From an uncultured Pseudomonadota bacterium (GTDB taxonomy: Bacteria > Myxococcota_A > UBA796 > GCA-2862545): a stretch of 64,000 nt of DNA. The stretch covers positions 186,001 through 250,000 of the forward strand of contig CAJXTB010000004.1 of the NCBI GenBank assembly GCA_913061235.1, read 5' to 3'. Positions 14,043 to 63,888 of this stretch are shown here, in pieces. Positions within the stretch are counted from its first letter, which is position 1. Each line of letters opens with the position of its first letter. A program made the translations under genes and the position numbers. The notes beneath the pieces are model-generated. The model had not been told where the DNA came from and searched no databases. It saw nothing but the letters and a program-made list of their open reading frames with translations.

Positions 14043-15740
14043 TTGACCGACTCTCCCCGAGGCGGAGCGCCAAAGAACTTCGCTGGCGACCGCTATGAGG
14101 TGATTCGGGTCCTGGGTACCGGTGGCACTGCCACGGTGTACCTGGTGCGGGACACGTTGTTGGATGTCCTGCGTGCGTTGAAGGTGCTCCGGGTTGGCAA
14201 TGCTGACCTGGGTCGCCGGCTAGCCGCCGAAGCCCGGATGATGGCCAATCTGGACAATCCGCACATTCTGCGCGTGGTGGATGTTGGGGAGGACGAAGGT
14301 CGTCCGTACATTGTCATGGAGTACCTGTCTGGCGGGACTCTCGCAGACATAGGCGAACACGGACCGCTGGCGGTCAGCGCTGCGCTAGGCTGGATGCTGC
14401 AAGTTCTCGCTGCGCTGTCCGCCTCGCATGCGGTCGGCATTGTTCACCGCGACGTTAAGCCGTCCAATGTCTTGTTGGATGCCAAGGGTGTGGCCAGTCT
14501 GGCTGACTTTGGCATTGCCATGCGCGACGGCACGGACGAAGAGCGAAGTACCCGCACCGGCGTGGCCATGGGAACGCTGGCCTTTATGGCCCCTGAGCAG
14601 CGCTTGGATGCGCGGTCGGTCAGCCGAGCTGCGGATTTGTACGCCGTGGGCAGCAGCCTGTACTCCCTGCTGACCTATCGCAGCGCTATGGACCTCTTCG
14701 TTGTTCAAGCGGGCGACAAGCGCCTGCGAGGCTTGCCTGCGGACCTAGAGGCGATTCTTCTCAAGGCGACTCGCTACCGGGCGGAAGAGCGCTACGACAC
14801 GGCTGCCGAGATGGCCGATGAGCTGTGGGCCGTGCTGCCGAACGCCTCGAAAGTACCGCTGTTTACCGTGCAGGATGACGCTGTCCCTCCGGTCAGCGTT
14901 CGAACAGCGACACCGGGCCCGCTCGCGTCCCGTATCTGGCCTCCGGCGGATGTAACGGCAAGAGCTATGCGGACAATGACGCCGCTAGTACGCCTGCCGA
15001 ACTCAACAACGCTGTCTGCCCAGCCCACGCTGATTCCGCCGGCTGCTGGGACTACGCCGCTACCGGCGCCGCCAATTGTCCAGACAACTCGTCGCTCCGC
15101 TTGGGTGTATTGGGGCGTTGGACTTGGCGTTCTAGCCTTCATCATTGCGGTTGTGGTGTGTGTCAGCGGACAGGGTGTGGTCAACATGGGTGAGCCATCC
15201 GACGCGAGCCTAGCGGACATGGTGGGAACCGATGGGATGGACGCCATCGCAGATGTTGACTTGGGGACCGAGCCAGACTCGGACGTCGACTCAGACATCG
15301 ACACAGCACCGCCCGTGGTGGTGCAACCGGAACCCGTAGCTCAGCCTGCTCCCATTGTGGCGCCGCGGCCGGCTCCAGTGCCCATCCGGACTGAGCCAGC
15401 CCCATCTCCTGCGACAGGACCGTTTCCGATCGGTCGGTATGCGGGCTACCTGGACACCCGTCCGGTAGAGCTGCGTTTGACGGGGACTTCTGAGGCGTTG
15501 AACGCTACGATTAAGACGTGGTTCTCTGAAGCGGATCGGTCGAACGATACGGACAACCATCAATCTCGCACCATGACTGGAACATGGGACGACGCCACGT
15601 CTACCCTCAAGCTCTCTGACCCAACGGAGTTCAATGGGGCGGGCACGATTGAGGCGCAGTGGACTGGACGGTCCTTCTCGGGACGGTTCCGTGACCGTCG
15701 TGGTACCCACATCACGTCGTTTGATGCACGGCCTCGTTAG
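14043..15740 (+). CDS. Transmembrane Ser/Thr protein kinase
   Basis: The 565-residue eukaryote-like kinase has a complete active site: Gly loop GTGGTATV (25-32), Lys47, Glu63, HRD 135-137, DFG 155-157 and APE 183-185. A Pro/Thr-rich linker leads to one membrane helix (about 353-374), then an acidic and Pro-rich stretch and a C-terminal beta-rich domain of about 115 residues (ATGPFPIGRYAGYL onward) outside the cytoplasmic membrane. The start is a TTG with no strong ribosome-binding site. The gene leads a forward cluster with OmpA-like and LysM/FecR genes, so envelope sensing is a reasonable inference. It has no PASTA repeats, and its substrate is unknown. Confidence 0.9.
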   Translation: MTDSPRGGAPKNFAGDRYEVIRVLGTGGTATVYLVRDTLLDVLRALKVLRVGNADLGRRLAAEARMMANLDNPHILRVVDVGEDEGRPYIVMEYLSGGTLADIGEHGPLAVSAALGWMLQVLAALSASHAVGIVHRDVKPSNVLLDAKGVASLADFGIAMRDGTDEERSTRTGVAMGTLAFMAPEQRLDARSVSRAADLYAVGSSLYSLLTYRSAMDLFVVQAGDKRLRGLPADLEAILLKATRYRAEERYDTAAEMADELWAVLPNASKVPLFTVQDDAVPPVSVRTATPGPLASRIWPPADVTARAMRTMTPLVRLPNSTTLSAQPTLIPPAAGTTPLPAPPIVQTTRRSAWVYWGVGLGVLAFIIAVVVCVSGQGVVNMGEPSDASLADMVGTDGMDAIADVDLGTEPDSDVDSDIDTAPPVVVQPEPVAQPAPIVAPRPAPVPIRTEPAPSPATGPFPIGRYAGYLDTRPVELRLTGTSEALNATIKTWFSEADRSNDTDNHQSRTMTGTWDDATSTLKLSDPTEFNGAGTIEAQWTGRSFSGRFRDRRGTHITSFDARPR

Positions 15741-34282: not shown

Positions 34283-35431
34283 TCAGCCGAAGAAGAACCA
34301 CAGGGCGAATGCACTGGCACCCATGACAATGATGCCCAGGCCGAAAGCACCGAATAGCGCAGTGATGCTGACGGTTGCCTGCGGGATGCGCTTGTCTGTG
34401 TCGCCTGGCAATGTGGCGGGGTCGGGTAGGCGGCCACTTCCCGGCTGCGTGCGTTCATCTGCCCGTGTTGGGGTGATGGGAGCGAGGCTGCGCGGCGACA
34501 GGATGGGCGGCGTGGGGCCCGGTGGCTTGCGCCCGCGACGAGCGAGACAGTTCTCTAGTGAGACATCAAGCTTGGCCATCCAGCTCATCCCAAGCGGCTC
34601 ATCGGAGACAGCGTCAACGGCGTCCGCAAGGCCTTGGGCCATGGCTCGCCCATCGCGGTAGCGGTCTTCGACTTGCCACTCGGTGGCAGAAATGATGACG
34701 CCGGCGACAGCCGGATGGACCTTGGCCAGTAGCTCGGGACGGCGTGAAAGAGCAGAAAGAACACTTGGATGGCGGCCTGTCACCATGGCAAATAGCGTGG
34801 CCCCCACAGCATAGAGGTCTGCGGGAGGCCCAACATTGGTTGGGTCCACGCTCTGTTCGGGTGCCATGTACCCAACTGTTCCTAAGCGGTCGTCGCTGCG
34901 CGTCTCGTGCAAGGGTTTGCTGTCGACTAAGCGGACAATGCCGAAGTCAGAGAGTCGTGCTGAGCCGTCTGTCGCGAGAAGGATGTTGCCGGGCTTGACG
35001 TCGCGATGGATGGCGCCCATTGCGTGAACGGCGGTGAGGGCGCTGACCACGTCGAAGGCGATTCGGAGGGCCCGGTCCGGTGGAATCCGTTTGCCAGCGA
35101 CCAGCAGGTCTTTGACCGAGCCACCTTCGATGAGCTCCATGACCAAGTAGTAGCGACCCGCCTCGCTTCCGTAGTCGTACACCCGCATGACGGTGGGGTG
35201 CTCGATACGGGCCATGATGCGGGCTTCGGTGTGAAACCGAGAACGGAATGCTGGGTAACGCCCGGCCTGCTCATCGAGCAGCTTTATCGCCCGTTCAACA
35301 CCCAGAGTGCGGTCAACAGCACTCCACACCGAGGCGATGCCACCTTCGCCTATGACTTCGCGAAGTTGGTATCGGCCACGCGCCAAGGTCTCTGGAGCCT
35401 TGGAGGGGCTGGTGTTGGTTTCTGTGCTCAC
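34283..35431 (-). CDS. Tail-anchored Ser/Thr protein kinase
   Basis: The 382-residue eukaryote-like kinase has all catalytic motifs: Gly loop GEGGIASV (28-35), Lys50, Glu69, HRD 142-144, DFG 162-164, APE 190-192. After the kinase domain comes a Pro-rich linker and a single C-terminal membrane helix ending the protein (about 355-382: LFGAFGLGIIVMGASAFALWFFFG), so it has no extracytoplasmic sensor. The GTG start overlaps the stop of the leucyl aminopeptidase gene as GTGA; the longer frame to 35614 lies in that gene. Translational coupling implies joint expression with the peptidase. Confidence 0.92.
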   Translation of the reverse strand: MSTETNTSPSKAPETLARGRYQLREVIGEGGIASVWSAVDRTLGVERAIKLLDEQAGRYPAFRSRFHTEARIMARIEHPTVMRVYDYGSEAGRYYLVMELIEGGSVKDLLVAGKRIPPDRALRIAFDVVSALTAVHAMGAIHRDVKPGNILLATDGSARLSDFGIVRLVDSKPLHETRSDDRLGTVGYMAPEQSVDPTNVGPPADLYAVGATLFAMVTGRHPSVLSALSRRPELLAKVHPAVAGVIISATEWQVEDRYRDGRAMAQGLADAVDAVSDEPLGMSWMAKLDVSLENCLARRGRKPPGPTPPILSPRSLAPITPTRADERTQPGSGRLPDPATLPGDTDKRIPQATVSITALFGAFGLGIIVMGASAFALWFFFG

Positions 35432-36915
35432 GTGGCGAGTGTACCAGCTTCGTTGTTGCCAGGTGGCAGACGTAAGTTCGGGATAAGGTCGAGAAGTAGG
35501 GCGGCTCCATACCCAGTGGCACGGCTGCCGGAGACGGAAGGGCCGGCCATGTCGATGTGAAGCCAAGGGCCGGCGTAGTCGCCCAAATGGTTCGCAATGA
35601 ACTGCCCAGCGCATGAGACCTGAGCGTTACTTCGATCTTTCACCGAGTTCTTCATATCTGCAATGCTACTTGCGAACTCGCGTTTGAACAGCTCTGGTGC
35701 AAAGGGAACCGGATGTGCCAATTGGCCACTGTTGCGCCCGGACACAACGACCTGCTGTTCTAGAGCTTCGTTGTTGCTCATCACTGAGGCGTGTAGTCGG
35801 CCGGTCGCGACCATCTGGGCACCCGTGAGGGTGGCCATGTCGATGAGTACGCCGGGATTTCGGTACTTGACGGCCCATGCGACACCGTCACCCAAGACCA
35901 ATCGCCCCTCTGCATCTGTGTTGTTCACCTCAACCGTGCGGCCGCTGAGCATGTGCAGCACGTCATCTGGACGAATGGCCCGACTGCCGAGGGCGTTCTC
36001 GGCAATGCACAAGATGGCGGTGATGCGCAGAGTGGGGTGTAGGCGCACAAGGGCCTCGAAGCCGCTGAGTACGGCGGCCGCTCCCCCCATGTCGGTCTTC
36101 ATTCCTGGCATGCCCGTCTTGGGCTTGATGGACAATCCGCCGGTGTCATAGGTGATGCCCTTTCCGACGAGAACAATCGGCGCACCAGCGTCGCTTGGGC
36201 CGTGATCGAGCACGACCAAGGCCGGTGGATGTGTAGACGCTTGGCCCACCCCATACAGCCCGCCGAGACCCTGCTCGCGCAGCGCCTCTCCCTGAACAAC
36301 GTGAACGGCGACGTTGTCCAACCGAGCTGCGACAGCCTGTGCTTCGGCCACAAAGCGTTCAGGGTGCAGGACATCGGGGGGCATGTCGACCCACTGTGCG
36401 GCGTCGCGGGTAGCTGCTGCGACGACCTGGGCGGCAGTTGGGTCAACGACGGACCCGTCAGGTCCAAGCAAGAGCACGGTAGTCGCGCGTTTTGCTTGCT
36501 TTGAAGCGGCGCTGTACGTGGGGAGCGCGCTGGCAATGGACGCAGCCACGGCATTGGCAAAGGAAGCGTCCTCAAGAATGGCGATGATTCCTAAGGAGCG
36601 TGGGGCACCAGCTGCTCGGACAATCCCTGGAATTGCCCATGCGCGACTGGGCGAATTGTGTCGTGAGCAGGCTTCTGGAAGCACGCCGAAGACCCACTTT
36701 TGAACGGGGTCCCCGAAGTGGGTGGATGCCGTTCGGCCAGTATCCCCAACGCGCGATGGGCCGACGAGGGCCGTCAACAACGTCTCGCCTAGGTGCTCGG
36801 GCAGCACGCTGGCGCAGACGTCATGGTTGAGCAGGTGGCGGCGCCCAATGATCAATACCGTCTTGAGTTCGTCGAACCCCGCGGTGGACGTGACAAAACT
36901 CAGATCGGAATGCAC
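35428..36915 (-). CDS. pepA: Leucyl aminopeptidase (M17 family)
   Basis: The two-metal aminopeptidase has 495 residues and releases N-terminal amino acids from peptides in the cytoplasm. The C-terminal catalytic domain has all metal and catalytic residues: K252 (GKGITYDTGG), D257, K264, D275 (KTDMGGAAAV) and the signature NNTDAEGRLVLGD with D334, E336 and R338. The N-terminal domain is divergent, as usual. The start is a GTG with GGAG five bases before it. It forms a coupled pair with the downstream kinase gene through a GTGA overlap. Confidence 0.93.
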   Translation of the reverse strand: MHSDLSFVTSTAGFDELKTVLIIGRRHLLNHDVCASVLPEHLGETLLTALVGPSRVGDTGRTASTHFGDPVQKWVFGVLPEACSRHNSPSRAWAIPGIVRAAGAPRSLGIIAILEDASFANAVAASIASALPTYSAASKQAKRATTVLLLGPDGSVVDPTAAQVVAAATRDAAQWVDMPPDVLHPERFVAEAQAVAARLDNVAVHVVQGEALREQGLGGLYGVGQASTHPPALVVLDHGPSDAGAPIVLVGKGITYDTGGLSIKPKTGMPGMKTDMGGAAAVLSGFEALVRLHPTLRITAILCIAENALGSRAIRPDDVLHMLSGRTVEVNNTDAEGRLVLGDGVAWAVKYRNPGVLIDMATLTGAQMVATGRLHASVMSNNEALEQQVVVSGRNSGQLAHPVPFAPELFKREFASSIADMKNSVKDRSNAQVSCAGQFIANHLGDYAGPWLHIDMAGPSVSGSRATGYGAALLLDLIPNLRLPPGNNEAGTLAT

Positions 36916-55993: not shown

Positions 55994-56932
55994 ATGCCGT
56001 TGGATGCCGCTGCTCTGGTCGCTCGAGCCGCTGGTGGAGAGCGCCTTGCACTGTCGCGGTCGATCAGCGCGATTGAAGCTCGTTTGCCAGGAATAGGCGA
56101 GGCGCTCACGTCCCATGACGTGCGCCGGCGCGCAGGTCCTGGTGTGCCCCACGTGATTGGTTTGACCGGTCCACCGGGGGCAGGAAAGTCCACGTTTGCG
56201 GACCGTATTGTCGCAATGGCCCGAAAAGAAGGAAAGCGGGTGGCTGTTGTTGCAGTCGACCCCAGCTCACCGTTTTCAGGAGGAGCGATTCTGGGTGACC
56301 GGGTGCGAATGGAAGCTCACACAGGAGACGACGGGGTCTACGTGCGCTCATTGTCGGCACGAGGCCACTTGGGTGGCTTGTCGGGTGCTACGCAAGAGGT
56401 CGTGGATATTCTGGACGTCGCAGGCTTCGATCTCATTGTGGTGGAGACGGTCGGGGTGGGGCAGTCGGAGCTAGGAGTCATGGAGGTTGCGGACTCCGTA
56501 GTGGTTGTGTTGACTCCCGAATCCGGAGACACGGTTCAAACACTAAAAGCCGGCCTGCTTGAGATTGCCGACGTTTTCGTGGTCAACAAGGCCGACCGTC
56601 CGGGGGCCCAGCGGCTCGCTCGCGAGATGGAGCGGTCCATCGCTCTGGATGACTCGCCTGGCTACAAGCCTCCGGTATTTACTGCCTCAGCAACACAGCG
56701 CACGGGGATTGACGCTGTCGTTCACGCCGCCGCCGACCACCTACGCTGGTGCATGGACGAGGGGCGGGAGACCTGGGAACGGCGTCGAGGAGACGCGCGG
56801 GTTCGTCTGTATTTAGACCTCATCGGTGAGCGTGCACGTGCCGCGGCGGATGCTGCGCTTGGTCCCGCCGACCGGGAACGGCTGCGGAGCGGACAGGTTC
56901 CTGCCCAGTCGATCCTACAGGAGCCGAAGTGA
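55994..56932 (+). CDS. meaB: Methylmalonyl-CoA mutase-associated GTPase MeaB
   Basis: MeaB is a G3E-family GTPase that protects and reloads the B12-dependent methylmalonyl-CoA mutase. The 312-residue protein has Walker A GPPGAGKST (59-67), VDPSSPFSGGAILGDRVRM broken as residues about 87-105, switch wording VVETVGVGQSELGVMEVAD and NKADRPGA. Family members also act on ethylmalonyl- or isobutyryl-CoA mutases. No mutase gene is in the window. The next gene starts with GTG overlapping its stop (GTGA). Confidence 0.95.
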   Translation: MPLDAAALVARAAGGERLALSRSISAIEARLPGIGEALTSHDVRRRAGPGVPHVIGLTGPPGAGKSTFADRIVAMARKEGKRVAVVAVDPSSPFSGGAILGDRVRMEAHTGDDGVYVRSLSARGHLGGLSGATQEVVDILDVAGFDLIVVETVGVGQSELGVMEVADSVVVVLTPESGDTVQTLKAGLLEIADVFVVNKADRPGAQRLAREMERSIALDDSPGYKPPVFTASATQRTGIDAVVHAAADHLRWCMDEGRETWERRRGDARVRLYLDLIGERARAAADAALGPADRERLRSGQVPAQSILQEPK

Positions 56933-57696
56933 GCCCTCGGGCCTGGCTTCAGTCGCTCGAGACGACGTCTCCCGAAGGACAGATCACTGCGACTCGGAAC
57001 GGCGCTCACGCGGAGATTACTCTCGACCATGATCGGGCTCGCAATGCGCTGACCACGAAGATGATGGGCGAGCTCGTTGAAATAGTGGACGACTGGGTGG
57101 CCCATCCGCCCGTCGTGTGGACGCTGCGAGCACGAGGTGCTGCATTCTGCGCCGGCGGACATCTGGGGGATGTCCGTGCGCACCTAGGTACGCCTGAGGC
57201 CGGTCATCACATGGCAACGCTGATGGGACAGGCCATTCAACGACTGGCCAATCTGCCAGCGCTCGGCATTGTGGTTGTCCACGGAGCGGCTGTCGGTGGA
57301 GGAGCGGAGCTCGCCCTTTGTGGTGATGTGTGCCTGATGGCTCCAGAGGCACGCTTGGCGTTCGTCCAGGCTCAGCGTGGCGTTGCACCCGGCTGGGGTG
57401 GTGCGCAGCGGCTCATCGACCGTGTAGGCAAGACGCAGGCCCTTCGAACACTTCTCACGTCGCCCGTTCTCTCCGCAATCCAGGCACAACAGATGGGAAT
57501 CGCGGTGTGTTCGGATGATGTAGATGCAGAGGCCACAGCGATGGTCAATGCTGTCTTGGCGTTGGAACCGGATGTTGTTCGCGCCGTTGTGGCCCAAGTA
57601 CGGGGAACAGCGACTGAACCTGACGCGTTCGCCACAGTGTGGGGCAGTACCGGACATCTTGCGCGCTTAGCGGGTCTTCCATGGGGCCGCCCGTGA
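56929..57696 (+). CDS. Crotonase-family enzyme resembling ECHDC1 (ethylmalonyl-CoA decarboxylase)
   Basis: The 255-residue crotonase-fold enzyme has the oxyanion-hole segments RARGAAFCAGGHLGDV and HGAAVGGGAELALCGD (E127), then LMAPEARLAFVQAQRGVAPGWGGAQRL and, near the end, FATVWGSTGHLARLAG. As I recall the human ECHDC1 sequence, the W-G-G at 156-158 and the T-V-W-G at 236-239 match that ethylmalonyl-CoA decarboxylase better than ordinary enoyl-CoA hydratases. The translational overlap with meaB supports a role in (m)ethylmalonyl-CoA metabolism, perhaps repairing misformed acyl-CoA. An ordinary hydratase is the alternative. Confidence 0.8.
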   Translation: MSPRAWLQSLETTSPEGQITATRNGAHAEITLDHDRARNALTTKMMGELVEIVDDWVAHPPVVWTLRARGAAFCAGGHLGDVRAHLGTPEAGHHMATLMGQAIQRLANLPALGIVVVHGAAVGGGAELALCGDVCLMAPEARLAFVQAQRGVAPGWGGAQRLIDRVGKTQALRTLLTSPVLSAIQAQQMGIAVCSDDVDAEATAMVNAVLALEPDVVRAVVAQVRGTATEPDAFATVWGSTGHLARLAGLPWGRP

Positions 57697-58223
57697 GGGT
57701 GTGGTGGCTGTTGTTGGGCTTTGCCTGTGCCCCGCGTGTCGCTCAAACCCCACCGAATGGCGCTTCGCTTACGTTGCCGCAGACTGCGATTGTGACGACT
57801 GCGACTGGCGAGCCCGTTGCCTCGGGTCCGTGGTCCAACGGGCAGGTAGGGCTGACGCTTCCCGATGGGTGGTCGGGCATGACCGGCCCCCCGGGGGCCT
57901 CCCTGTTGTTGCGCGTGACGGAGCCGGTGTCGCTGTCGCAGGTTGAGCTGTGGTCGTTTGCTCCAACCGGACGTCCTGCGGCGCGACCCCGACCAGGATG
58001 TGAGCCGATTCTGGATGACCGTGGCCGGTACCGGGCAGTGCCAGCACTGGATCCTGCGGCGAGCCACAGCTGTGTGGAGGCCGACGGCACTCTGGTTCAG
58101 GGCTGGTACAGCATCCAGGGCGGACAAGAGGTCCACCTGGAGGCCATCTACCCACCTGGCGAGGGGTTTCGCGGTCGCCTGCTTGTTGAGCCGGTCCTGC
58201 GGTCGCTCACCATCACCCGCTAG
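57693..58223 (+). CDS. Small lipoprotein, function unknown
   Basis: The 176-residue product starts MRVWWLLLGFACAP, with a short signal and Cys after GFA, a possible lipobox. The mature part has beta-type strands (ASLLLRVTEPVSLSQVELWSF, VEADGTLVQGWYSIQGGQEVHLEAIYPP broken into shorter strands) and two Cys (GCEPILDD, HSCVEAD). GTG start overlaps the preceding stop (GTGA), so it is in the meaB operon. Its stop shares CTAG with the convergent MYXO-CTERM gene. No family recognised. Confidence 0.72.
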   Translation: MRVWWLLLGFACAPRVAQTPPNGASLTLPQTAIVTTATGEPVASGPWSNGQVGLTLPDGWSGMTGPPGASLLLRVTEPVSLSQVELWSFAPTGRPAARPRPGCEPILDDRGRYRAVPALDPAASHSCVEADGTLVQGWYSIQGGQEVHLEAIYPPGEGFRGRLLVEPVLRSLTITR

Positions 58224-59998
58224 CTACGACGGCGACGGGCCATGAACAGCAGGAAGAGGGCGCCGTAGACGGCTCGGGCCGGGGCGGTCGCTCCGCCGAC
58301 TGCACAGCCCCCACCACAACTGCTGCCGGTGTCCGCACACCCTGCGCCGTCGCACCCACCGTTGTTGTATTGAACGAGTCCCAACTCGCTGTACACGCCG
58401 ATGTGGTCTCCACCATTGCCGCTCGCGGCGTACTCGAGCGTGGTGAGGCCCAAGCCCTCGAGCGATGGCATGCCGAAACGAATGTCGGTCAGCAAGTCGC
58501 CGACCAGTGGTTCGACGATGGTGCCCATCAGGCCGGAGAGCTGATCTTCAACCTGGGCTTCGTTTCCAGGAGCCAGCTCCAGGTAGGTGACGGTTGGCTC
58601 AATGTCTGCGGCGTCGAACGTGATGTCGAGGGAGAGTTCGCCGGTTGTTGTGACCCAGCCCAGGTCCACACCTGCGTCGGTCTCGATCTGAGCACCGATC
58701 ATCCGGGCCATACGGCCGTCGAGGTTGGCGTACATGTCCAGGCCCAACCCTTCGATGCGTGCCGTGATGTCGTGCTCACCGTCGAGTACAGCGTAGGGCT
58801 GGATGGTGGGACGAGTGATGATCTCCATGGACTCGGTCTCGGGGAAGTATGCCTCAAAGGCATCTCCAGCGACGATTCCGAGAAGGGAGGTGTTGATGGC
58901 CACGGGCAAGCTGTCATCGCCATCTTGCAGTGTGTAGCAGAGCAGTCCACCGGCCCAGACCGAATAGAGCGCTTGGTTGACCAGGTCATCGTCGACAAGA
59001 ATGCCGACGTGGTGGCCCTCGCGAACATCCAGCGGAGCGGAGCCGAGTGCTGGCAGATCTCCGGCAGTGGAGAGCGAACCGTTCGGCATGTAGGGGTCCA
59101 TGCACGGATGGATGTCGGAGCTGATGGAGCTTCCGAGCTGAATACGCATGCCTTCAGGCTGGATGTCGATGTCTTCGGGCCAGACGTCGAGGTACAGGAT
59201 CGACTCACCCAGCGCGATCTCTTCGCTGATCTGAACCGCGGCGAAGGCGTCTTCGAGGGCCGGTTCAATGGCGACGGCAAGCTCCTGAATGGGACCGTCT
59301 ACCGAGTCCTCAACCGTGTCGAGAATGGCACCAATCGCCAGTTCCCAAGGATTGAAGTTGATAAGGTCAAACAGCGCGCCGTCGAAGAAATCCTGAATGT
59401 CCGCAAGGCCGCACTCGGACAGCTGAAGGTCCTCCGCCTCCAGGTTCCATTCCCACAAGATGGGGGAGACGGTGGCGTCCACTACACCTTGGCCGTCGAT
59501 GTCGTCGACGATGTCGATCTCTACGGTGGTGAAGATGTCGACATCTACTGGGTTGAGCCAGAAACCACAGTTGGTGTTGATGTCGATGAGCTCAACAATC
59601 TCGACACCCGCCGCGATGGTCGCTGGCGCTTGCTGGGTGTTGATCTTGATGCGCGCTGTGGCGTCCAGCTCGATGACCTGGTCGGCAGGTGTCATGGTGA
59701 GGTTGGTCAGCTGTACGTTGACGTCGACATTGTCGATTCGCACAAAGTAGTCGTACGTCACAACATCGACCCAGCATCCACCGAAGGGGTTTGGGATGAT
59801 GCAGTCCACGCGACGGTCACCGAGTTCCACGGCCGGAACAGGGATGTTCGACGGAATCAGATTGCCAACCACGCGAGGCAACTCGACGAATCCGGCGGCT
59901 GTCAGGTCTACAGCAATGGCGTCATCGAGGTCCGCACCGTGCGGGACCTGTGCCATAGCAGAGGAAGAAGTTAGCAACGCGAGGAGAAGGGCGGACAT
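58220..59998 (-). CDS. BPI/TULIP-like exported protein with MYXO-CTERM-like tail
   Basis: The 592-residue protein has a signal peptide (MSALLLALLTSSSAMAQ). The body is beta-rich; the segment GHHVGILVDDDLVNQALYSVWAGGLLCY, given here as residues about 348-375, and TSLLGIVAGDAFEAYFP resemble the C-terminal barrel of BPI/LBP lipid-binding (TULIP) proteins. The end has a Cys-rich stretch (GGCDGAGCADTGSSCGGGCA), a short hydrophobic run (AVYGALFLLF) and Arg cluster (MARRRRS), the MYXO-CTERM layout used for surface sorting in Myxococcota. GGAG six bases before the ATG. Its ligand, if any, is unknown. Confidence 0.8.
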   Translation of the reverse strand: MSALLLALLTSSSAMAQVPHGADLDDAIAVDLTAAGFVELPRVVGNLIPSNIPVPAVELGDRRVDCIIPNPFGGCWVDVVTYDYFVRIDNVDVNVQLTNLTMTPADQVIELDATARIKINTQQAPATIAAGVEIVELIDINTNCGFWLNPVDVDIFTTVEIDIVDDIDGQGVVDATVSPILWEWNLEAEDLQLSECGLADIQDFFDGALFDLINFNPWELAIGAILDTVEDSVDGPIQELAVAIEPALEDAFAAVQISEEIALGESILYLDVWPEDIDIQPEGMRIQLGSSISSDIHPCMDPYMPNGSLSTAGDLPALGSAPLDVREGHHVGILVDDDLVNQALYSVWAGGLLCYTLQDGDDSLPVAINTSLLGIVAGDAFEAYFPETESMEIITRPTIQPYAVLDGEHDITARIEGLGLDMYANLDGRMARMIGAQIETDAGVDLGWVTTTGELSLDITFDAADIEPTVTYLELAPGNEAQVEDQLSGLMGTIVEPLVGDLLTDIRFGMPSLEGLGLTTLEYAASGNGGDHIGVYSELGLVQYNNGGCDGAGCADTGSSCGGGCAVGGATAPARAVYGALFLLFMARRRRS

Positions 59999-60035
59999 TA
60001 GCGACTCCGGTGGAACCAGTGGCGCACGATAGCCG

Positions 60036-60665
60036 TCAACTGTCCTGGGTATCAACTCCCATGTCGGTCAACTTCTTCTGTAGGAAAGCGAGGCGGGCCA
60101 TTGCCAATGAATGGGCGTCGGTGGCGCTGCCTTTGGTTTGCTTTGCGATGCGGCCGTAGTGACCACAGAGTTGCTGCAAGTGGTCGTGCAGTAAAGGGTG
60201 TCCATCCGCGAGCAGCCGTGGACCAAATTCGAGGGTGAAGCCGCTGCTCGGCTCGTCTCCGGGGACGACTCGAAGGACTTCCGCGTACCTGCGTGCTTCG
60301 GGTGCGAGGGCCTCTGCATCGATGCGCCAGCCGCGTGTGGCCAACATGCGTCGGAGCTTGGGTGGGTCATCTTGCGCATGGAGAATGGCGACAGAAGGCC
60401 GTGGTCCGTTGTCGAGAATGCGGACGATGGTCTCGGCGCCCATGCCGGCGATGACGGCGCATGGCACGTCTCGGAAGGGCAGCAGGCCGTCGGCAATGAC
60501 CCAGTCGACATCTGTGCGACCCGACCGCTGCGGCATGCGTTCTGTGGCAATCCCGCCAAGTGCGTGGGCCACATGGCCGTGGTCCGCACCGACATCGATG
60601 ATCAGTGTGTCGGGAGGACAAAGGTCGCGAATAGCGAACCGGCGTGCGCGTCCTGCTCGCTTCAT
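60036..60665 (-). CDS. trmK: tRNA (adenine22-N1)-methyltransferase family, TrmK-like
   Basis: TrmK methylates N1 of A22 in bacterial tRNAs. The 209-residue protein has motif I IIDVGADHGHVAHALG (22-37) in place of the family's DIGSDHAYLP, IADGLLPF, the signature VIAGMGAETIVRIL (71-84), and a helical C-terminus (ARLAFLQKKLTDMGV). The match is to the family as a whole; some members act on other tRNA sites. Its ATG overlaps the upstream pseudokinase stop (ATGA), making it the third gene of a three-gene operon. Confidence 0.85.
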   Translation of the reverse strand: MKRAGRARRFAIRDLCPPDTLIIDVGADHGHVAHALGGIATERMPQRSGRTDVDWVIADGLLPFRDVPCAVIAGMGAETIVRILDNGPRPSVAILHAQDDPPKLRRMLATRGWRIDAEALAPEARRYAEVLRVVPGDEPSSGFTLEFGPRLLADGHPLLHDHLQQLCGHYGRIAKQTKGSATDAHSLAMARLAFLQKKLTDMGVDTQDS

Positions 60666-62233
60666 AGGGAGGCGTCCTTGACTGCGTCTCGCGCCGCGAT
60701 TGTGGCTTCGTGGACCGCTTGTAGGACGGGTTCCATGGGCAGCCCGCTACGCACAGGTAGACTCGATTGTAGACGGTCGATGGCTTGATTGAGGCCCGCG
60801 ACTTCGTCGTCTAAGGCGCTGTGTGCGGGTCCCGAGCCTGTGTCCACTGCAGCGAGGTCCATGAGGCGACGCTCCAGCTCCGTGAGGGCATCTCGGACGT
60901 CGGAATCGGCTGCGACGGGTAGGTCGATGGCCGCCAGATGGCTTCGGATGGCGGAGATGCGGGTCTGGGCGTCCTGCAAGCGGGCAGACAGCTTCGGGCC
61001 GCCCGTAAGAGCGGCTGCGGTGGACCGGAAGGCAAGCGCGCGTGCCCCCCAAACCGCCAGACCCAAGACCGTGGTGGCGAAGAACAAGACGGACAGCAGT
61101 GCTGCCCAGTACGCGCCGGTGATGAGTGCTAGACCGATCACCAAGAACCCCAATCCACTGGCACCCAAGGAGGCCAAGATTCGCAGTGCCGAAGGGGGAG
61201 TGAGCACGGTCAAGGGAACGGCAGCGCTGCTTTGTAGTTCTTGAATGCGCGCTGAAGCAGTCTGCGCTGTGGCGAATCCCGAGACAATGAGGGGATTGCC
61301 GGACTGTACAACGTCTCGGACATACGAAACGGAGCGGTTGGACCAGCCAGCGAGCACACTGAGGTCCGCGGGCGAGAGTCGCTGCAGGTCGTCATTCTCA
61401 ACGGCGATGAGAGCGCGAGCGCTGTCGCGAACGACGTCCAATCGTGCGTTGTCGCTCGTTTGAACCGGGTCGCTGTCGCGGTTGGTGCGTGTGGTCAGCT
61501 TCACAGTCCCCACCACGGCGGTGGCCTTGGGGGCTGCTGTGTCTAGGCGTGCTGTGACCTGCCGGCGCTCGCTCGGGGCGTTGGCAAGAAGTGCTGCCAG
61601 TCCCTGGGTGAGGTTGAACGGAAGGTCCGTTCGCCATGTCGTTGCGAGTTCTGGGGTACCTTCGTCTGTCCGCAGCCCGGGATCGAGCGGAGTTCTTCCC
61701 GTGAGGGCGGTGTAGAATACCGCGCCTAGTCCGTACAAGGCTGCTTCTGCTGAGTGCGGCTGACCGACGTGGCGTTCTGGGGCGACTGTGGTGAGGTCTG
61801 TGACGGCATCCGCGCCGATTGGCGCTACGACGAGGCTTCCGTCAGCGCGCCGACGCAGGTCGCGTGAGTTCGTCGACGACTGGAGTGCAGGGCCCGCTGC
61901 GAGGACTGCGGGGACCAAGATCCGAAGCTGCTGTTCTGCCAGAGCAGCGTCCCGCCCAATGGGCAAGGGCTCGGTCCACGGGCGAATGGCTGCGAACGCT
62001 CCAGACTGGGTGTTGCCAGTCCAGGTGGTGGTCAACACCCCTGGATGAGAGGCCTGTTGAAGGCTTGCGTGGGTGGCCTTGAAGCCGTCTAGGTCCGGCT
62101 GGGATGCGGACGGGGCAACAATGAGGACTTCCACAGCATCATTGCCGGAGGTGCCGCGGAATCGGTGTACATCTCCGATTGCACTGATGTGCTCGGTGAG
62201 GACGGCGGGGCCGATAGCGTCCCCGACGTTCAC
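60662..62233 (-). CDS. Membrane-anchored pseudokinase with coiled-coil tail
   Basis: The 523-residue protein has a degenerate protein-kinase domain (about 1-230): the region with APE (APERHVGQ, 151-158) and AEAALYGLGAVFYTALTGRTPLD is kinase-like, but there is no Gly loop, no VAIK Lys, HRD is replaced by SRDLRRR and DFG is missing. A helical linker leads to two membrane helices (about 353-373 and 376-396) and a C-terminal coiled coil (LSARLQDAQTRISAIRSHL, LTELERRLMDLAA). It should bind rather than phosphorylate. It overlaps the Trypco1-like gene and trmK on both sides as ATGA. Confidence 0.8.
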   Translation of the reverse strand: MNVGDAIGPAVLTEHISAIGDVHRFRGTSGNDAVEVLIVAPSASQPDLDGFKATHASLQQASHPGVLTTTWTGNTQSGAFAAIRPWTEPLPIGRDAALAEQQLRILVPAVLAAGPALQSSTNSRDLRRRADGSLVVAPIGADAVTDLTTVAPERHVGQPHSAEAALYGLGAVFYTALTGRTPLDPGLRTDEGTPELATTWRTDLPFNLTQGLAALLANAPSERRQVTARLDTAAPKATAVVGTVKLTTRTNRDSDPVQTSDNARLDVVRDSARALIAVENDDLQRLSPADLSVLAGWSNRSVSYVRDVVQSGNPLIVSGFATAQTASARIQELQSSAAVPLTVLTPPSALRILASLGASGLGFLVIGLALITGAYWAALLSVLFFATTVLGLAVWGARALAFRSTAAALTGGPKLSARLQDAQTRISAIRSHLAAIDLPVAADSDVRDALTELERRLMDLAAVDTGSGPAHSALDDEVAGLNQAIDRLQSSLPVRSGLPMEPVLQAVHEATIAARDAVKDASL

Positions 62234-62628
62234 TGGGCTGTCGCGTCCTGTGAGTCGTCAAAGCTGGGCTCCGCCTCTAGCAGCGGGAACGGTTCATCTG
62301 CCGGTTGGGCCGCTCTTACGGCGCCGGGATTCTTGAATGACATGGTGACCTTGAATTGCCCTTCCCCGGGGTTCATGGCGATCATGACCAAGCCAGTGTG
62401 GTCGCACTTCATGGAGAAGGAGACCTCGGCATCTGCTCCGGTCGCTACCATTGTAGGACGCAGCTCAGTGGCGAATTTTTGAGCGATTTGACCGGTAGTC
62501 GTGATCGCATTCTGCAGCGCAAGGCTTGGATTGGGGCGAACCTCTAGGTCAGATTTCGCGAACGCACCCGATGTTGCGGCCTCGATGACGATTTGAGTGT
62601 CGTCGTCCAAGTCTGTGATGTAAAACAT
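62230..62628 (-). CDS. Trypco1-like (CU044_2847-type) small protein
   Basis: The 132-residue protein resembles the Trypsin-co-occurring domain family: a short strand start (FYITDLDDDTQIVIEA), a central helix (SLALQNAITTTGQIAQKFATELRP) and the late beta-pair VSFSMKCDHTGLVMIAM ... GQFKVTMSFKN. Such domains are linked by others to bacterial conflict and immune-like systems with peptidase or ATPase partners. GGAGG five bases before the ATG. It is the first gene of an operon with the pseudokinase, and a divergent cyclic-nucleotide-binding gene lies 96 bp away. Confidence 0.7.
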   Translation of the reverse strand: MFYITDLDDDTQIVIEAATSGAFAKSDLEVRPNPSLALQNAITTTGQIAQKFATELRPTMVATGADAEVSFSMKCDHTGLVMIAMNPGEGQFKVTMSFKNPGAVRAAQPADEPFPLLEAEPSFDDSQDATAQ

Positions 62629-62724
62629 GCATTCCTCCGCGGCGGGGGATTAGCCTATTCGCGGTGTTGCTGTCGTCTTTGGTGGACAGGTTGCCAGTCG
62701 GGTAGACTCTTGATGAGGAATCGT

Positions 62725-63234
62725 ATGCGCGCCGAAATTCCACTGGATGAAGTCATCCACTTTCTGCTTGACACGCCCATGTTTGAGCACCTGAACGAGG
62801 ACGAACTGTCGACACTCGTTCACGTTCTGGAACTGCAGCAGTTCCAGGAAGGGGATGCTCTCTTTCGTGCGGGGGATCCTGGAGATGCGTGGTTTGTGAT
62901 CTACCAAGGCGTAGTCGAAATCTCGCATTTTGGCGTTGAAGGGACGCGTGTTCTGACACGGCTAGGGCCGCGTGGATGTTTTGGTGAGATGGCCGTATTG
63001 GACGGCGATACGCGCTCGGCAAAGGCGAAAGCGACCTCCGAGGGCACTCTGTTTCGTGTACCGAAGGCTAGCTTCAATCGTCTTTTGCGCGAGGGAGACC
63101 TGGCGGCCTACAAGCTCGTGCATAGAATGGCGCTGCTGTTGGCAGCCCGCATCCGCTCTATGAACGCGGACGGAGCCTTCGCCGGAGCAGAGTCACTGCC
63201 GATACTGCTAGACGACGGACCAACGGACCACTGA
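62725..63234 (+). CDS. Cyclic-nucleotide-binding domain protein
   Basis: The 169-residue protein has one cNMP-binding domain: FLLDTPMFEHLNEDELSTLV, LQQFQEGDALFRAGDPGDAWFVIYQG and the phosphate-binding cassette CFGEMAVLDGDTRSAKAKA with Glu and Arg at the ligand positions. There is no DNA-binding helix-turn-helix, unlike CRP, so it should act by protein contact. The ATG at 62725 has GAGG upstream; a TTG/ATG at 62710-62713 is an alternative. It is divergent from the Trypco1-like gene. Confidence 0.87.
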   Translation: MRAEIPLDEVIHFLLDTPMFEHLNEDELSTLVHVLELQQFQEGDALFRAGDPGDAWFVIYQGVVEISHFGVEGTRVLTRLGPRGCFGEMAVLDGDTRSAKAKATSEGTLFRVPKASFNRLLREGDLAAYKLVHRMALLLAARIRSMNADGAFAGAESLPILLDDGPTDH

Positions 63235-63285
63235 CAGCGTCAGCGGTGTTGTGCTCCCTGTACTTTGATGTGTGGAGACTGCCTG

Positions 63286-63888
63286 ATGATGGGTTTGCTA
63301 CTTGTGGCGTTTGCGTCTGCCCAACCGCCGGGCGATCTGCGTCCGCGTCTTGCGCCAATCGATGCCCCCCAACAGTTTGCTGAGTATGCGCGCAGCCAGG
63401 GGCGAAGCGAGGTTCTTGCCTGTGAACCGTTCTGGGCAAGTGCCGCTCTTCTGTGTTGGCAGCGCGCGACTGGGGAGTGGGTGACCGCCAGCGAGCTGCG
63501 CGAATGGGACACGACCCACGCAGCATTGGTCGAACAAGCGACCGTGACGGCACGCGAGCACTTTTCGGCCGGTTGGACGGAAGTCCCTGTGGACGGCATG
63601 ACAGGCAGCTACTTCATGGCTCCGGACCCCGATGGCTGGGCTCATGGCGCGGTACTCGTGCCAGAGGTGATTGCGACGGTCACCGGCACACCGACCTTCT
63701 ACGTCACCGTCCCTGTTCAAGGGGTGGTACTGGCGTGGTCGCCTGGAGATGCCGAGCTGGACCACGTGATTGCCGTAGGCGCTCACAAGATGTTCGACAG
63801 CGAGCATGGGCCCGTGTCGCCGGTGGTGTTCCGCTACGCCGGTCGCTGGCGGCAGTTCGCTGAGGCCAAGCCAACGACGGGTCCGTAG
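63286..63888 (+). CDS. Exported protein with DUF1444-like C-terminal half
   Basis: The 200-residue protein has a signal peptide (MMGLLLVAFASA). The C-terminal half (AVLVPEVIATVTGTPTFYVTVPVQGVVLAW then HKMFDSEHGPVSPVVFRYAGRW broken as residues about 130-190) follows the DUF1444 pattern of a P-x-x-V-P core and an F-x-x-x-x-x-P-(L/V)-S turn. The N-terminal half has two Cys close together (EVLACEPF, LLCWQR). Function unknown. GGAG lies seven bases before the ATG at 63286. A tRNA gene on the other strand follows after about 75 bp. Confidence 0.72.
   Translation: MMGLLLVAFASAQPPGDLRPRLAPIDAPQQFAEYARSQGRSEVLACEPFWASAALLCWQRATGEWVTASELREWDTTHAALVEQATVTAREHFSAGWTEVPVDGMTGSYFMAPDPDGWAHGAVLVPEVIATVTGTPTFYVTVPVQGVVLAWSPGDAELDHVIAVGAHKMFDSEHGPVSPVVFRYAGRWRQFAEAKPTTGP

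Follow-up and report, generated by a model that had tools for sequence, protein, structure and literature searches.

A putative membrane pseudokinase linked to a short-type TrmK in a lineage-specific myxobacterial operon

Three genes on the minus strand of the window, by which we mean the whole 64,000-nucleotide stretch of DNA analysed here, probably constitute a vertically inherited, lineage-specific operon in which a membrane pseudokinase would serve as a scaffold coupled to a methyltransferase of the TrmK family, and to which a Trypco1-domain gene would have been joined by deletion. The first gene (62628-62230) encodes a Trypco1-domain protein of 132 aa that matches PF19493, the second (62233-60662) a membrane pseudokinase of 523 aa with a predicted kinase fold and no catalytic residues, and the third (60665-60036) a short-type TrmK of 209 aa that matches PF04816. 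The first-pass annotation had the three genes overlapping as ATGA twice; there are indeed two overlaps of 4 nt, but only the second (60665-60662) reads ATGA, the first (62233-62230) being GTGA, with GTG as the start codon of the pseudokinase gene. A strong Shine-Dalgarno motif (GGAGG) precedes the Trypco1 gene, and the ribosome sites of the pseudokinase and TrmK genes are weak, which fits the expectation for translational coupling. The TrmK would be translated in coupling with the pseudokinase, and the earlier suggestion that the genes are likely made together is supported. A pattern search for sigma-70 promoters and terminators performed at chance level. The comparison set comprised 71 genomes of the class and 379 of the phylum, with families numbered from f1 (the window's own) to f9. 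The same three-gene order was found again in most genera of f1, and hence the arrangement is not due to chance.

The second protein is composed of a kinase fold (residues 1-235), a disordered linker (236-270), a small alpha/beta domain (272-346), a transmembrane hairpin and a coiled coil formed by a helical tail (417-522). Two membrane helices had been proposed for it, and hydropathy reveals a single hydrophobic stretch of about 50 residues (approximately 348-401) that is long enough for such a hairpin. The kinase assignment is weak by sequence, since the match to PF00069 (12.1 bits) is confined to the C-lobe and falls below the gathering cut-off of 31.7, but it is strong by predicted structure. 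In an AlphaFold2 model built on 13 aligned homologues (mean pLDDT 79), the kinase lobe lies mostly near or above 90, and VIA-align, in a fold search that covered the kinase part only, superimposes it on PknB with a Z of 20.9 and an rmsd of 3.3 over 230 aligned residues. The top Foldseek match was the pseudokinase of Mycobacterium tuberculosis Rv3910.

The catalytic residues are absent, as had been claimed. When 16 members of the family were aligned with two active-looking kinases from the same window, the beta-3 Lys was present in none of the 16 and the HRD Asp was kept in one, while the catalytic Asn was replaced by Asp and the DFG Asp by Pro in all of them; the two active-looking kinases align with every motif intact. 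That the DFG Asp is invariably Pro, across families, points to a pseudokinase clade that is dead as a whole and not just in the window copy, and on the sequence an active kinase would be ruled out by the missing catalytic residues. The entire kinase fold aligns with that of PknB-type bacterial Ser/Thr kinases (Z about 20), whereas the catalytic Lys, Asp, Asn and DFG Asp of the latter are missing from protein 2. A further parallel is the intracellular pseudokinase of Rv3910 (MviN/MurJ; PDB 3otv, 3uqc and 3oun), which likewise presents a kinase fold within a membrane protein, and which has been solved in complex with FhaA, evidence that domains of this kind can work through binding. Rv3910 is, however, a MurJ flippase, whereas protein 2 carries a hairpin and a coiled coil and no flippase, and in the kinase fold the two sequences are about 19% identical. 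We postulate that protein 2 is a catalytically dead scaffold with its helical hairpin in the membrane, that its kinase lobe, alpha/beta domain and coiled coil would be cytoplasmic, and that it may act by binding partners instead of phosphorylating them.

The order of strands and helices in the alpha/beta domain (272-346) had suggested ribosomal L7/L12 or SPOR, and neither was supported by Pfam or solved-structure profiles, the best SPOR match having an E of 0.08. Separate profiles were used for the kinase part and for the core alone. Two ordinary Hanks-type kinases of the window (14043-15740, plus strand, and 34283-35614, minus strand) have intact HRD and DFG motifs, and each contains a hydrophobic stretch resembling a membrane helix. 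Strong matches to the dead-kinase core were obtained in 37 genomes, all belonging to the same order, and elsewhere in the genomes compared nothing exceeded 25 bits. Protein 2 therefore appears to represent a membrane pseudokinase family confined to one myxobacterial order and apparently undescribed so far.

The third protein was correctly recognized as a TrmK-like tRNA methyltransferase, with 63.7 bits against PF04816 for a gathering cut-off of 27, and its family profile matches the solved TrmK structures 6q56 and 7o4m over the Rossmann domain and the C-terminal region. The residues of Staphylococcus aureus TrmK that contact SAM (Arg7, Asp22, Gly24, Glu47, Asp75, Gly76 and Met94; PMC9190014) are kept in protein 3 as R8, D24, G26, E42, D59, G60 and M75. 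In comparison with canonical TrmK, the tRNA (adenine22-N1)-methyltransferase that it resembles in profile and SAM contacts, protein 3 is nonetheless shorter, lies in a separate clade and is coupled to the gene of a membrane protein. About 11 residues are missing between the motif II Glu (E42) and the Asp-Gly pair (D59-G60), including the counterpart of SaTrmK Asn59, and it follows that the substrate of the short TrmK may have changed. In the tree, the short TrmKs form a clade of their own, separate from canonical TrmKs, and they were detected in 22 genomes at 213-326 bits, all within f1-f3, the next best match scoring 80 bits. As the sole TrmK in the window's genome, protein 3 has most likely kept its SAM-dependent methylation of tRNA.

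The best-supported and most tightly kept unit of the locus is the transmembrane/coiled-coil core together with TrmK. The dead-kinase core lies directly upstream of the short TrmK in all 18 genomes in which the contig allows the view, with an exact in-frame overlap of 4 nt in 15 of these. Six genera that have lost the kinase fold keep the alpha/beta-TM-coil core and TrmK together (L094, L099, L101/L103, L107, L132/L135 and L137), and core and TrmK are both missing from G022 and G023. The initial proposal of trmK as a rider is plausible; mere riding, however, would not require so close a link with the membrane protein. This regularity, along with the shortened, separate clade of the methyltransferase, could be explained by a functional complex in which the transmembrane/coiled-coil core anchors or regulates a membrane-tethered RNA methyltransferase of altered substrate, a possible though rather unlikely reading. 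Overlap and linkage can arise without contact; moreover, G009, a genome 77% complete, keeps the core with no detected TrmK, and no TrmK is found near the core in f4-f6, where the canonical TrmK is located on another contig. An extended form, in which pseudokinase scaffold and remodelled TrmK are one machine, with RNA methylation tethered and switched at the membrane and the kinase lobe as an optional sensor discarded by several genera, seems to us unlikely. The myxobacterial dead-kinase/TrmK pair is also borne by a contig titled Klebsiella pneumoniae (L149, CAMCWU010000359.1; TrmK identity 51%), in all probability a MAG that has been mislabelled.

Protein 1 is indeed a member of the conflict-system-type Trypco1 family, as first proposed: it matches PF19493 over profile positions 2-97 of 98 with 27.8 bits against a gathering cut-off of 24.6, and the match stays above the cut-off in a whole-genome search. 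The Trypco1 domain (approximately residues 6-99) is followed by an acidic tail. The domain is present in a single copy in the genome, and orthologues of the protein were found in 45 of the 379 phylum genomes, every one of them within its own order. Its predicted structure has a pLDDT of 66 and a structural search with that model gave no match, and a literature search for CU044_2847 found no paper.

The association of Trypco1 with the other two genes is looser than that between the core and TrmK. The first-pass annotation asked for conservation of gene order, and linkage is not confined to close relatives, although only f1 has the complete three-gene operon. In f1 the Trypco1 and dead-kinase genes abut, with no more than about 50 nt between them in most genomes. 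In f4, f5 and f6, the cNMP gene and the gene next to it usually share a strand and diverge from Trypco1, which is followed by a DUF374 gene on the opposite strand and then by the dead-kinase gene. Outside f1, the order is broken either by this opposite-strand gene or by location on different contigs, as in the f4 genomes G031, G033 and G035, which retain both Trypco1 and the kinase gene; their joint retention at separate places in several f4 genomes could reflect shared function without linkage. Of the 42 genomes in f2-f6, 38 carry DUF374, an acyltransferase-like family, which all 21 genomes of f1 lack. Deletion of DUF374 in the f1 ancestor is the simplest account of this pattern, with a direction that rests on the distribution (absence in f1 only), given that the cNMP and neighbour proteins yielded a poorly rooted tree. 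Loss of the opposite-strand DUF374 gene would have made Trypco1 the leading gene of the operon, and its product may serve as an adaptor, whether or not in contact with the kinase lobe.

A stronger role for Trypco1, in which the dead kinase lobe would bind it as an adaptor within a membrane signalling pair and TrmK would be a passenger, is quite unlikely. Both proteins occur in this order only, they share the same neighbourhood in f1, f4, f5 and f6, and their genes abut in f1; yet DUF374 separates them in f4-f6, and there is INDEPENDENCE of parts, with Trypco1 retained despite loss of the kinase fold (G006, G007, G015 and G017) and the kinase fold found without Trypco1 (G018 and G027). By a simple count that is not corrected for phylogeny, neither association, including that of Trypco1 with the dead-kinase gene, is significant (Fisher p 0.15 each), so that the count does not demonstrate a partnership.

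The original idea of a membrane signalling or defence module finds no support as regards defence. Trypco1 was described beside trypsin-like peptidases in vWA-MoxR-associated (VMAP) conflict systems (PMC7159879), and the domain of protein 1 resembles those of such systems to the extent of exceeding the Pfam cut-off; it lies, however, at a locus of fixed, housekeeping context (MeaB, enoyl-CoA hydratase) that looks vertically inherited, and a Pfam scan of eight window proteins (55994-63888) found no trypsin-like peptidase. Searches of 72,556 plasmids and 50,697 phages found nothing that matched protein 1, and a genome search for VMAP-C (PF20028) gave no match, although the controls were equally silent. 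PD-T4-6 and MADS kinase profiles match protein 2 weakly and in the C-lobe only (E 8e-7 and 7e-5; for MADS6, 21.5 against 460 bits), and membership in PD-T4-6 or MADS6 was discarded because these are generic C-lobe matches and the catalytic residues are gone. A mobile defence system was rejected on the restriction to a single order, the fixed locus, the single Trypco1 copy and the absence of protein 1 from the plasmid and phage collections, and an anti-phage or biological-conflict module with TrmK as its effector is, in spite of the Trypco1 domain and the weak kinase-profile matches, very improbable.

The genes flanking the operon are conserved to differing extents. Downstream, an open reading frame on the same strand (58220-59998) encodes an orphan protein, secreted and about 600 aa long, the likely start of which is the ATG at 59998 rather than the TTG at 60055. 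It gave no match in the Pfam scan, and it ends in a Cys/Gly-rich C-tail, a transmembrane segment and a run of Arg that resemble Myxo-CTERM. The gene comes after TrmK in several relatives and is a probable fourth gene of the operon. On the other side, a divergent cyclic-nucleotide-binding gene adjoins the operon, as had been noted (62725-63234, plus strand; PF00027, 77.6 bits), and its synteny extends over f1-f6. It is followed on the same strand by an orphan gene without Pfam match (63265-63888) that is conserved with it, in synteny in 36 loci. As a pair (62725-63888), the two are conserved at this locus in most of the order, a wider distribution than that of the three operon genes.

The lineage-specific operon that we favour thus brings together a pseudokinase family and a short TrmK whose linkage to that family is apparently obligate. 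The history of its first gene, in turn, suggests how loss of an intervening gene, rather than ancestral partnership, can bring a conflict-type domain into an operon. Should the link between TrmK and the membrane protein prove to be physical, the operon would provide a testable case of tRNA modification controlled at the membrane.
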